A stretch of 64,000 nucleotides of DNA from Halosimplex litoreum (GTDB lineage Archaea; Halobacteriota; Halobacteria; Halobacteriales; Haloarculaceae). The stretch's first letter is position 1, and every line of letters begins with the position of its first letter. The translations under genes and the position numbers were made by a program. The notes below the pieces were generated by a model, which did not search any database, had not been told where the DNA came from, and saw only the letters and a program-made list of their open reading frames with translations. The stretch is taken from positions 496,001 to 560,000 of the forward strand of contig NZ_CP065856.1 in the NCBI RefSeq assembly GCF_016065055.1. Direction: 5' to 3'. Below, piece by piece: positions 26,131-29,143 of the stretch.

Positions 26131-26379
26131 ATGAGCGATTCCACACGTGCACAGCGGATCCACGAACTCGACGTGACGGTCTGGGTCGGCAAGAAGGGCC
26201 TCGACCCCGTCGAGGCCGAACTCAACGACCAGCTGGCCGAGCGTGAGTTCGTCAAGGCGAAGTTCCACCGGTCGGCCCGCGGGGGGACCACCACCGAGGA
26301 GCTGGCCGACGACCTCGCCGACCGCGTCAACGCCGAGGTGGTCCGCACCCGCGGACACACGGCGGTGTTCGAGCGATGA
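26131..26379 (+). CDS. YhbY-like (CRM-domain) RNA-binding protein
   Basis: The 82-residue protein has the CRM fold: helix AQRIHELDVTVWVGKKGLDPVEAELNDQLAE, strand VKAKFH and the final VVRTRGHTAVFER. The GKKG turn matches the GxxG RNA contact of this family. It probably acts in ribosome assembly or RNA processing, which fits its position beside rnp4. The stop overlaps the start of the mechanosensitive channel gene (ATGA). Confidence 0.9.
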   Translation: MSDSTRAQRIHELDVTVWVGKKGLDPVEAELNDQLAEREFVKAKFHRSARGGTTTEELADDLADRVNAEVVRTRGHTAVFER

Positions 26380-27314
26380 TCGGCGGCTTCGGCCCGCTCC
26401 AACAGACCGACCCGGAAGTCCTCCCGAACGGTGTCGTCGCCGAGTTCCTCGCCGACTCGTTCGGTCTCGAAGCCACGCTGGCCAACGCCGTCGGCTCGGC
26501 GGTCACCTTCGTCGTCGCGTTCGTCGCGCTGTACGTGCTCGGCCGCGTCGTCATCAGCCCCATCGTCGGTCGTTTCCTCTCCTCGCGCGACCTCGACGAG
26601 CACGCGCGCAAGCCGCTCCGGAAGCTCACCAACTTCCTCATCGCGTTCGGCGCGCTCGGCGTCGCCTTCGCGTTCGCCGACTACGGCAACATCCTCACCT
26701 CCATCGCCACCGTCGCCGCCGCGGCCACGCTCGCCATCGGCTTCGCGCTCCAGGACGTGCTGAAGAACTTCGTCGCCGGCATCTTCATCTACACCGACAA
26801 GCCGTTCCGCATCGGCGACTGGATCGAGTGGGACGGCTACGCCGGCGTCGTCGAGGACATCAGCCTCCGCGTCTCCCGCGTGCGCACCTTCGACAACGAA
26901 CTGCTGACGGTCCCTAACTCCCAGCTCACCGACGGCGTCATCAAGAACCCCGTCGCGAAAGAGGAACTCCGCCTGAAGTTCCTGTTCGGCATCGGCTACG
27001 AGGACGACATCGACAAAGCCACCGAGATCATCGTCGAGGAGGCCGACGACCACCCCGACATCCTCGACGACCCGGCGCCGTCCGTGCGACTGACCGAACT
27101 CGGCGACTCCTCGGTCGGCCTCCAGTCGCGGATCTGGATCTCGAATCCCAGTCGCGCGGACTTCGTCAAGACCCGCGGCGAGTACGTCACCGCGGTCAAG
27201 GAACGCTTCGACGAGGAGGACATCAACATCCCCTACCCGAACCGCACCATCGGCGGCGGCATCGAACTCTCGAACGTCGAGGGAGTCGTCGAACCGACGG
27301 CCGGCGACGACTAG
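26376..27314 (+). CDS. MscS-family mechanosensitive channel
   Basis: This 312-residue protein has three N-terminal membrane helices (about residues 25-55, 75-100 and 105-130), the last being the pore helix (ATLAIGFALQDVLKNFVAGIFIYTDKPFRIGDWIEW). The beta domain (GVVEDISLRVSRVRTFDNELLTVPNSQLTD) and the C-terminal alpha/beta domain follow. It opens on osmotic downshock. The ATG overlaps the yhbY stop (ATGA), so the two are coupled. Confidence 0.95.
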   Translation: MIGGFGPLQQTDPEVLPNGVVAEFLADSFGLEATLANAVGSAVTFVVAFVALYVLGRVVISPIVGRFLSSRDLDEHARKPLRKLTNFLIAFGALGVAFAFADYGNILTSIATVAAAATLAIGFALQDVLKNFVAGIFIYTDKPFRIGDWIEWDGYAGVVEDISLRVSRVRTFDNELLTVPNSQLTDGVIKNPVAKEELRLKFLFGIGYEDDIDKATEIIVEEADDHPDILDDPAPSVRLTELGDSSVGLQSRIWISNPSRADFVKTRGEYVTAVKERFDEEDINIPYPNRTIGGGIELSNVEGVVEPTAGDD

Positions 27315-27325
27315 CCACTTTTTAC

Positions 27326-27665
27326 TGCGAGGGGTTTCCTCGCTCGCTTCGCTCACGGCGCTTCGCGCCGTTCGCACCGAGGTGCTCCCCTCGGTCGCAC
27401 CTCGCTCCGCTCGCTGCGGGAAACCCCTCGTTACAAAAACGTGGGGAAAAACTGCCGGTCGCTCCCTGTAGTCGCGACCGGTGAATCGCGCTCGCACGGC
27501 TCGCGCGAATGCTGGCCGCAGACCAGCCTGTCCCCGGGTCGCCGACGGAACGACCTCCCGGCCACCGCAACAGCACCGCTCTGCTCTGCAACAGCACCGC
27601 TCTGCTCTGCAACAGCACCGCTCTGCTCTGCAACAGCACCGCTCCGCCACCGCAACCGCCGCGAC
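27326..27665. repeat. Left arm of the inverted repeat around the hydrolase gene
   Basis: The arm contains an outer hairpin (GCGAGGGGTTTCC at 27327-27339 paired with the stretch ending AAACCCCTCGT near 27430), then GTTACAAAAACGTGGGGAAAAAC. A stretch around CAGACCAGCCTGTCCCCGGG (27519-27539) follows, then a run of short tandem repeats. In reverse complement it matches 28577-28815 over long parts with scattered substitutions. No coding function is seen. Confidence 0.75.
27567..27643. repeat. 21-base tandem repeat, three full copies and a part
   Basis: The unit begins GCAACAGCACCGCTCTG and is repeated exactly at 27567-27587, 27588-27608 and 27609-27629, with a partial fourth copy to 27643. The length is a multiple of three, so frames stay open across it, which explains spurious ORFs here. 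It lies just beyond the stop of the hydrolase gene on the minus strand. Confidence 0.9.
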
Positions 27666-27669
27666 CGAG

Positions 27670-28536
27670 CTACGCTCCGCTTCCGTCCGACACCTCGGCC
27701 GTTTCCGCTGTCTCGCCCGGATAGACCTCCGCCAGCAGTTCGTGGACGGCGTCGGTGACGAACTCGAGGTTGTCGAGGTTCGAGGCGTGGCCGCCGCCCG
27801 GAACCGCGAGGAGGGTCGCGCCGCCGATCTCAGTCGCGAGACGACGGGCCTGCCGGCGCATGAACGGCGCCTCGTGCTCACCGTAGCAGACGAGCGTCGG
27901 CGCGGAGATCGCTGGGAAGCGGACCTCGGTGCGGTGGAACCCCGCCACCGCACCGATCACCTTCGCGAACTCGTCGGTCGACATCTTGGGTCCCGTCTCG
28001 CGGATCCGTTCGATGTTTTCGTAGTCGCCGCTGACGCCCTCGCCGGAGATCCGCTCCTGCAAGCGGACCAGCCAGCGCTCGACGCGTTCGTAGCCGAACA
28101 GGCGGACGAACGGCACCGTCGCACGGAGCAACAGCGACCGCTGGAGCCGTTCGCCGACGGAGAGATAGTCGGGTGCGAACGTGTCGGCCAGCACCAGCCC
28201 GGCGACCCGGTCGGGGTGGCGCGCGGCGTACACCTGGGCGATACAGCCGCCGGTCGAGAGCCCACAGATGACGGCCTCGTCGAATTCGAGCGCGTCCAGC
28301 AAGGCGTCCAGATCGTCGGCGAACAGGTCCACGGAGTAGCGACCGCGCTGGGACCCGCCGGTCCGACCGTGACCCCGTACGTCGTAGGCGATCGTCGTGT
28401 ACTGGTCGCTCAGCGCTTCGAGCTGGGGGTCCCACTGGGAGTGGTCGACGATGGCGCCGTGGACGAACACGACCGGCGGGCCCTCACCGCGGCGCTCGTA
28501 GTACGTCTCGATATCGTTGGTTCGGACGGTGGGCAT
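27670..28536 (-). CDS. Alpha/beta-fold hydrolase
   Basis: This 288-residue protein has the full alpha/beta hydrolase order: oxyanion loop VFVHGAIVDHSQW, AYDVRGHGRTG, nucleophile elbow GLSTGG (Ser near residue 94), an Asp/Glu region VCYGEHEAPF and the catalytic His in GGGHASN. A cap of helices lies between. The substrate is unknown. ATG 28536 starts at MPTVRTNDIETYY; the open frame beyond it runs into the inverted repeat and is not protein-like. The gene lies between two inverted-repeat arms and may have arrived with them. Confidence 0.93.
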   Translation of the reverse strand: MPTVRTNDIETYYERRGEGPPVVFVHGAIVDHSQWDPQLEALSDQYTTIAYDVRGHGRTGGSQRGRYSVDLFADDLDALLDALEFDEAVICGLSTGGCIAQVYAARHPDRVAGLVLADTFAPDYLSVGERLQRSLLLRATVPFVRLFGYERVERWLVRLQERISGEGVSGDYENIERIRETGPKMSTDEFAKVIGAVAGFHRTEVRFPAISAPTLVCYGEHEAPFMRRQARRLATEIGGATLLAVPGGGHASNLDNLEFVTDAVHELLAEVYPGETAETAEVSDGSGA

Positions 28537-28576
28537 ACCCCCGAATACGCCCTCGGCGGGGATACGGTCGTCGTCG

Positions 28577-28815
28577 GTCGCGGTGCTGAGCGGGGCGGTT
28601 GCGGTTCGGCGCAGTGGTGGTCGCGATGGCCGGGAGGCCGCTCCGTCGGCCGACCCGGGGACAGGCTGGTTTGCATCCAGCATCCGGCGCGAAGCGCCGG
28701 TTCACCGCATCGAGGCCGGAGGCCGAGATGCGGCTTTTTCACCCATGTTTTTCGACGAGGGGTACCCGCAGCGAGGCCGAAGGCCGAGCGAGGATACCCC
28801 TCGTCGAAAAAGATG
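28577..28815. repeat. Right arm of the inverted repeat around the hydrolase gene
   Basis: The reverse complement of this arm follows the left arm in order: the GCGGTTGCGG and GTGGTCGC part, GGGAGGCCGCTCCGTCGG, CCCGGGGACAGGCTGGTTTG, CATCCAGCATCC and CTTTTTCACCCATGTTTTTCG. It ends in a perfect hairpin, TTTTTCGACGAGGGGTA (about 28749-28765) with TACCCCTCGTCGAAAAA (about 28795-28811). The SRP RNA gene starts 13 bases beyond. Confidence 0.75.
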
Positions 28816-28827
28816 GTTGCGTGATGA

Positions 28828-29143
28828 ATGGACGGACTCCCGGGGTTGCCCGGTCGTTCGAGCGCGGGGAATCCCGCTTGCCTCCTCCACCCCGCGACCC
28901 TGCGAGCGACGGGTGTCCGAGGGTCCGCTGCTCGCTTCCGCGCCTGACGGAGTGCCCTCGATCAACCGCGGCCGCGCGTCCCTGCAGACGCGAAGCCGCG
29001 GACCGCCGTCCCCGCAGGACGAGGCTTCCACGTTGGCTCGCGGGGCCCACGCCCGTCGGACCGGACGCCACCGGTGTTCGGCCCCTGCTAAAGGCCATAC
29101 CGCAGGTGACGAGCAGGGCCTAGCTGCCCGGCCTAGTCCATCC
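28828..29143 (-). ncRNA. ffs: Signal recognition particle (7S) RNA
   Basis: On the minus strand the sequence has the SRP helix 8 signature GTCAGG-CGCG-GAAGCGAGCAGC (28925-28950): GGAA tetraloop flanked by the asymmetric loop that SRP54/Ffh binds. The 5' part (GGACTAGGCCGGGCAGC ... CCTTTAGCAGGGGCCGA) matches the haloarchaeal 7S RNA Alu domain as I know it. The ends pair, GGATGGACT with AGTCCGTCC, as helix 1. Length is about 316 bases. A minus-strand CTTATGA (29161-29167) lies about 20-25 bases before the proposed 5' end. The ends are estimates from pairing, good to a few bases. Confidence 0.88.

Follow-up and report, generated by a model that had tools for sequence, protein, structure and literature searches.

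The alpha/beta hydrolase gene located between an mscS-type gene and the SRP RNA gene of the stretch of DNA analysed here (64,000 nt, referred to as the window; all coordinates without a genome label are those of the window) is flanked by two copies of a dispersed, structured non-coding element that occurs mainly in a single family of the order. Judging from their position and sequence, these arms are most likely terminator-type 3'-end modules that act in both directions, and the hydrolase is most likely an ordinary gene, gained by the ancestor of the genus and then kept. Taken as a whole, the explanation that dispersed, docked terminator copies surround an ordinary gained hydrolase is in our opinion a reasonably probable one. 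A suspected gene cassette thus gives way to a family of modules placed at gene ends in many genomes of a single archaeal family.

Structure of the locus and of its inverted arms

The window covers positions 496001-560000 of a 4.16 Mb contig; its SRP RNA is archaeal, and the DNA is presumably haloarchaeal. The order of genes and arms is mscS (+), left arm, hydrolase (-), right arm, SRP RNA (-) and a DUF7548 gene (-), with the following features:

26376..27314, + strand: mscS-type mechanosensitive channel gene (PF00924/PF21082), whose stop codon TAG abuts the left element
27315..27444, + strand: hairpin 1 of the left element, a CCAC-TTTTT ... AAAAA-C-GTGG palindrome (fold z -7.46), with a stem that covaries across copies
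27351..27405 (approximate, by eye), + strand: extra palindromes inside the loop of hairpin 1, seen in the arm alignment and missing from most sister arms
27435..27451, + strand: spacer of the left element, AAAAACGTGGGGAAAAA, from the sequence
27454..27507, + strand: hairpins 2 and 3 of the left element, no more stable than shuffles (z -0.26)
27508..27566, + strand: conserved 'type II' tail of the left element, directed at the hydrolase, from sequence and alignment
27567..27647, + strand: 21-nt tandem repeat behind the left tail, about 3.9 copies, from the sequence
27670..28536, - strand: alpha/beta hydrolase CDS (PF00561), in the same place and orientation in 6 sister species
28577..28626, - strand: ACCGC-rich low-complexity stretch ending the right tail, upstream of the start of the hydrolase gene
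28627..28683, - strand: 'type II' tail of the right element, identical to the left tail in 51 of 57 alignment columns
28684..28700, - strand: hairpin 3 of the right element, from folding
28705..28734, - strand: hairpin 2 of the right element, from folding
28735..28752, - strand: spacer of the right element, AAAAACATGGGTGAAAAA, from the sequence and the spacer pattern
28748..28816, - strand: hairpin 1 of the right element (fold z -7.56), with its outer CCATC-TTTTT end towards the SRP RNA
28830..29143, - strand: archaeal SRP RNA gene (RF01857, 204.6 bits)

Each arm, read from its outer end inward, is composed of CCATC or CCAC, TTTTT, hairpin 1, a spacer of the AAAAACATGGGTGAAAAA or AAAAACGTGGGGAAAAA type, hairpin 2, TGAACC or TGAATC, hairpin 3, a tail with ACCAGCCTGTCCCCGGGTCG .. 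CTCCCGGCCA, and finally ACCGC-rich sequence. An earlier reading of the sequence alone had described inverted arms of common internal order, each ending in a strong hairpin, and both observations hold: the two arms, which align at 74% over some 200 nt (E 5.6e-22 when their own genome was searched), are copies of one multi-hairpin element in opposite orientations, and none of 200 dinucleotide shuffles folded as well as either terminal hairpin. The hydrolase gene and the 21-base tandem repeat reported by that reading are likewise present, and its arms need only slightly wider limits, the left starting at 27315 and the right ending at 28816. Hairpins 2 and 3 of the right arm are also more stable than shuffles (z -4.60), whereas the corresponding part of the left arm was equalled by 66 of 200 shuffles. 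The left arm has, in addition, the tandem repeat and the extra palindromes in the loop of hairpin 1. Small palindromes recur in or between element hairpins elsewhere (G000:C1 near 297138, 375037 and 2318243), as if hairpins attracted further hairpins; in Haloquadratum walsbyi, small repeats are described as inserting into the palindromes of others (PMC3119063).

The hydrolase was the only tested open reading frame of the block with a Pfam match (its protein began one codon after the ATG in this search), five further ones having none. Rfam matches in the window were confined to the SRP RNA and one tRNA, and neither the arm block nor seven other element loci gave a match above the gathering score, a lax-threshold search included. 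The outer 40-nt flanks of the block share no word longer than 5 nt, i.e. there is no target duplication.

The element stems covary among copies. In the 8 columns of hairpin 1 beside the T/A runs, 75% of cells are paired (88 distinct copies) as against 50.5% when the 3' sides were shuffled among copies, a control that ignores relatedness and reached a maximum of 54.4% in 500 shuffles. The corresponding values for hairpin 3 are 95% and 75% (shuffle maximum 84%; 42 distinct copies). Each of the 53 copies with a CCAT start has a spacer of the ATGG or ATGA type, and 29 of the 31 with a CCAC start have one of the GTGG or TTGG type, the other two having the same partner one base out of register and GATGG, respectively; four copies have other starts. 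Even orthologous places have different stems, so that this covariation is poorly explained by common descent alone. At odds with the preferred explanation, the outermost of the 8 columns, beside the T5/A5 runs, shows a C-C mismatch in 54 of the 88 copies.

A dispersed family docked behind gene ends

The arms occur as single copies across the genome. Searches of this genome gave at least 29 matches for the left arm and at least 45 for the right (arms themselves included; 40 candidates scored for each). The spacer pattern, with at most one mismatch, was found at 43 places there and at 43 and 26 places in two sisters (no match to the reversed pattern in any of the three). The exact pattern is present in 43 of 97 genomes, our own included, i.e. 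in 40 of 57 genomes of the same family and 3 of 40 of other families of the order, and the reversed control gave one match in all. The sequence-only reading held that arms which were common low-complexity spacers throughout the genome would speak against it; this applies in part, in that the arms form a genome-wide family, but its members are not low-complexity spacers. The right arm had no plasmid match in PLSDB. Two exact spacer matches in IMG/VR, considered as viral copies, were AT-rich chance hits without hairpins.

We studied 119 copies in three genomes, which include every one of the 43 spacer places of the own genome (G000), 42 of the 43 in G003 and 20 of the 26 in G006, together with weaker copies in the fetched stretches; copies too near the end of a stretch were dropped. 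The end of hairpin 3 was recognised in 91 copies, and tails were viewed for 25. As a separate observation, 33 of the 119 copies (in 32 cases of the CATGGGT subtype) run into a conserved 3' domain of 150-369 nt (GGCTGGGGAGG ... GAGGGCTTTCATC; e.g. L080:2730-2900), for which 44 pairs are predicted; 1415 of the 1445 cells are paired, and in 8 pairs both sides have changed. This domain is possibly an undescribed structured RNA or the core of a mobile element.

In 54 of the 119 copies a co-directional stop codon is found no more than 40 nt from the end of hairpin 1 (at 0-3 nt in 33 of these), compared with 3, 4, 2, 10 and 4 of 119 at control positions shifted 100, 200, 300, 400 and 500 nt upstream. 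The left arm begins 0 nt after the mscS stop codon, and 13 nt separate the right arm from the 3' end of the SRP RNA; the arms are therefore inverted because mscS and the SRP RNA gene point at each other, each with a copy behind it. At two further docked genes a copy lies no more than about 20 nt from the same stop codon in all 6 sisters, and stems and even subtypes differ among them. At a third, G004 and G005 share the element with G000, and G002, G003, G006 and G007 are without it (300 nt shown). Such patchy sites show that copies have been gained or lost. Two counts do not suit the preferred explanation: 65 of the 119 copies have no co-directional stop codon within 40 nt, and in 26 the left neighbour, at a distance of at most 150 nt, points in the direction leading away from the copy.

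The T-run of the element is followed by C in 95 of 115 copies, and the spacer supplies two T-runs on the opposite strand. In Haloferax volcanii the intergenic terminator motif, confirmed in vivo, is a T stretch followed by C, and hairpins are reported upstream of 503 termination sites (PMC7237163). In the explanation that we prefer, each copy docks, T5-hairpin end first, behind the 3' end of a gene that reads into the element, the left copy behind mscS and the right one behind the SRP RNA gene; as these genes converge, the two copies are inverted and enclose whatever lies between them. That the arms belong to a family, where its copies dock, that their stems covary and that the synteny is fixed are direct observations; termination, the gain of the hydrolase and the way in which copies spread are inferences from them. 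The outer T-run would terminate the transcript of the docked gene, and the spacer T-runs would terminate transcripts coming from the other side. If the elements do terminate transcription, these archaea spread ready-made terminators as repeats, which orthologous gene ends can exchange.

Direct repeats (score of at least 20) flank 21 of the 119 copies, compared with 65 of 14006 flank pairs from different stretches. They are concentrated in two related subtypes, CGTGGGC and CGTGGGT, where 16 of 22 copies have them, versus 3 of 84 of the CATGGGT subtype (Fisher p 1.6e-11, a value that ignores tandem and orthologous copies; 17 of 101 stretches hold a repeat-flanked copy). The repeats are 28-200 nt long and in 18 of 21 cases end 4-7 nt outside the CCA end. 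In 14 of the 21 copies the stop codon of a convergent gene lies within 60 nt of the hairpin 3 end, and the repeat is the end of that gene (read in several). Some of these loci are tandem arrays, and several of the repeats form part of an array whose outer copy has decayed; arrays of the element plus a copied gene 3' end occur at G000:C1:1631386-1631737, 1072547-1072817 and 3339769-3339923. Two pairs of orthologous loci have the same repeat boundary. At one locus, the repeat is present in G006, and G000 and G003 have the element at the same gene without it; the repeat need not, therefore, arise with insertion. Given this locus and the tandem arrays, an interpretation as plain target duplications is only partly tenable, and the repeats may result from (i) insertion with long duplication, (ii) tandem duplication by strand slippage at hairpins, or (iii) gene conversion.

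It is conceivable, and we suggest it only tentatively, as a doubtful idea, that the family inserts 0-3 nt from stop codons, possibly via host transcript ends, and that the CGTGGG subtypes copy 28-200 nt of the target 3' end to the far side and can build arrays of element plus gene end. We know of no description of such a way of moving for prokaryotic repeats. If the flanking copies of gene ends do reflect insertion, the mechanism would be a new one, tied to stop codons or transcript ends. The hydrolase arms have no such repeats (left score 15.5, i.e. chance level; right below 15).

History of the interval and of the hydrolase

Six of the seven examined relatives of the genus carry the hydrolase (80-90% identical); the seventh, G001, represented by a 71% complete genome, gave no close match. 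The order and orientation of mscS, hydrolase, SRP RNA and DUF7548 are unchanged in all 6 sisters with the hydrolase, whose orientation is identical in the 7 of 7 species of the genus where it was found. The downstream, mscS-side arm is recognisable in 6 of 6 sisters, in a decayed form in G004. The upstream, SRP-side arm has lost its tail in G004 and is absent from G005, where the gap between SRP RNA and hydrolase is 89 nt including the ATG. The sequence-only reading held that relatives with the hydrolase at this place and no arms would speak against it, and G005 goes half of this way, with one arm missing and the other present.

Outside the genus, 23 SRP loci with 1.5 kb on each side (out of 49 SRP matches) were available, and in none of the 23 is the hydrolase near the SRP RNA. 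The mscS gene is present at 11 of these loci and in 10 converges on the 3' side of the SRP RNA; G015, in which it lies on the 5' side, was excluded from the interval counts. At seven of the 10 convergent loci the interval is short, with 43 to 444 nt between the SRP RNA and the end of the mscS match; in one of these, G027, a single hairpin element of like build follows directly behind the SRP RNA (noticed by eye; the motif search did not pick it up). The other three (G014 L051, G008 L063 and G047 L072) have about 1.1-1.2 kb with a different gene inside and no spacer motif; a short hairpin-1-like stretch beside mscS in G014 (by eye) may be an element remnant. In G033 and G027, which share their genera with G014 and G008, the interval is short; together with the different genes in G014, G008 and G047, this indicates that the spot repeatedly gains or loses genes. 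The hydrolase was thus most likely gained in the genus, at an interval that accepts genes, and would then have been retained. Of 13 loci with hydrolase homologs outside the genus, 12 have no spacer motif within 1.5 kb, and in G021 there is one about 0.9 kb away.

The type II tail is uncommon: beyond the hydrolase arms, there are none to two more per genome among the matches listed, two of the further matches being weak and partial and five lying at one orthologous place, flanked by an archaellum-assembly-like gene and a co-directional one. In named genomes, a 19-nt tail pattern matched once, in a Nocardioides contig, which we take as chance. Likeness between the tails of the two arms of one genome is 0.91, 0.93, 0.93 and 0.99 in four genomes (the 51 of 57 columns of the own genome refer to a slightly different segment), as against means of 0.85 (10 pairs) and 0.83 (15 pairs) for orthologous arms of different genomes. 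A third, distant tail copy is 0.96-0.97 like both arms in G003 and 0.79-0.90 in other genomes. That same-genome tails are more alike than orthologous ones suggests gene conversion or replacement between copies, or common origin. An uncommon tail on both arms is unexpected under two independent arrivals and thus counts against the preferred explanation; gene conversion could, on the evidence of these comparisons, also explain it.

The same tail, the equal ends that both face outward and the 0 of 23 outside loci are what one would expect of a composite mobile cassette, i.e. two inverted mobile-element copies that brought the hydrolase into the interval in the genus ancestor, and to this extent the sequence-only reading, which proposed a non-autonomous element carrying one gene, is partly supported. 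We nevertheless regard such a cassette as unlikely. Among the matches listed for 7 genomes (40 candidates scored in each) there is no second inverted tail pair, the other type II copies being single, nor does any element lie within 1.5 kb of the four homologs elsewhere that are nearest to the hydrolase. The arms are individually missing (G005) or decayed (G004), the site is the same in all 6 sisters, other genes occupy the same interval without the spacer motif, and the block has neither a transposase among its tested reading frames nor a target duplication. The second proposal of the sequence-only reading, a repeatedly inverted hot spot, which might flip by recombination between the arms, would suit their inversion and the unusual likeness of same-genome arms, as from gene conversion, but is hardly credible given the single hydrolase orientation in 7 of 7 species.

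Two other explanations concern the elements themselves. Their palindromes near the ends, the absence of coding capacity and the scarcity of flanking repeats in the main subtype (CATGGGT) would fit PATEs, relics or satellites of IS605-type transposons mobilised by TnpA, which have been reported from Haloquadratum (PMC3119063). We consider this quite improbable because, among 35 IS605-type genes retrieved from three genomes (35 of 53 matches covered), only one has the spacer within 1.5 kb, with one 40-nt similarity there, and because of the docking at stop codons and the long flanking repeats of the CGTGGG subtypes. TnpB-type matches number 10, 21 and 17, and TnpA-type matches 1, 2 and 2, in G000, G003 and G006, respectively. 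It is very unlikely, too, that instead of terminating transcription the hairpin behind the stop codon lowers translation or protects mRNA ends, as has been reported of some E. coli REPs. The 33 of 119 copies at 0-3 nt behind a stop codon would allow this, and ribosome stalling is reported for E. coli REPs that lie no more than 15 nt from a stop codon (PMC12306157), but one element here follows the untranslated SRP RNA gene, and the T-run precedes the hairpin.

Comparison with known systems

Inverted arms around a gene are typical of composite transposons and MITEs, from which the present block differs in that no transposase was found in it and no target duplication at its ends. Its elements are of a kind already known, i.e. 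dispersed palindromic haloarchaeal repeats and REP-like repeats near stop codons, and our literature search of open-licence papers found no description of this particular element. The intergenic terminators of H. volcanii (PMC7237163) resemble it in having a T stretch with C behind genes, but no dispersed family is described for them, the word 'repeat' being absent from the main text of that report.

REPs are likewise palindromic extragenic repeats, some of which are situated just behind stop codons (PMC3733652; PMC12306157). They are reported across bacteria and archaea (PMC12306157, in whose main text 'haloar' and 'Halobacter' do not occur), with a length of 20-40 bp (PMC3733652), and a REP-finding tool takes palindromes of 5-32 nt (PMC12306157). 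The element described here, in contrast, measures about 140 nt or more, outside the 20-40 bp range, and has three ordered hairpins and a near-constant spacer.

The PATEs and small mobile repeats of H. walsbyi, as described in PMC3119063, are likewise short, non-coding, palindromic, dispersed and variable among lineages. PATEs have palindromes near both termini and lack terminal inverted repeats; in our element hairpins 1-3 are present, but hairpin 1 is itself the terminus, and the tails vary. PATEs also lack target duplications; here, repeat-flanked copies number 3 of 84 in the CATGGGT subtype and 16 of 22 in CGTGGGC/T. Unlike PATEs, the element does not have its ends in common with IS605-type genes (35 of 53 loci sampled), docks at stop codons and, in two of its subtypes, is bordered by long repeats consisting of the 3' ends of host genes.
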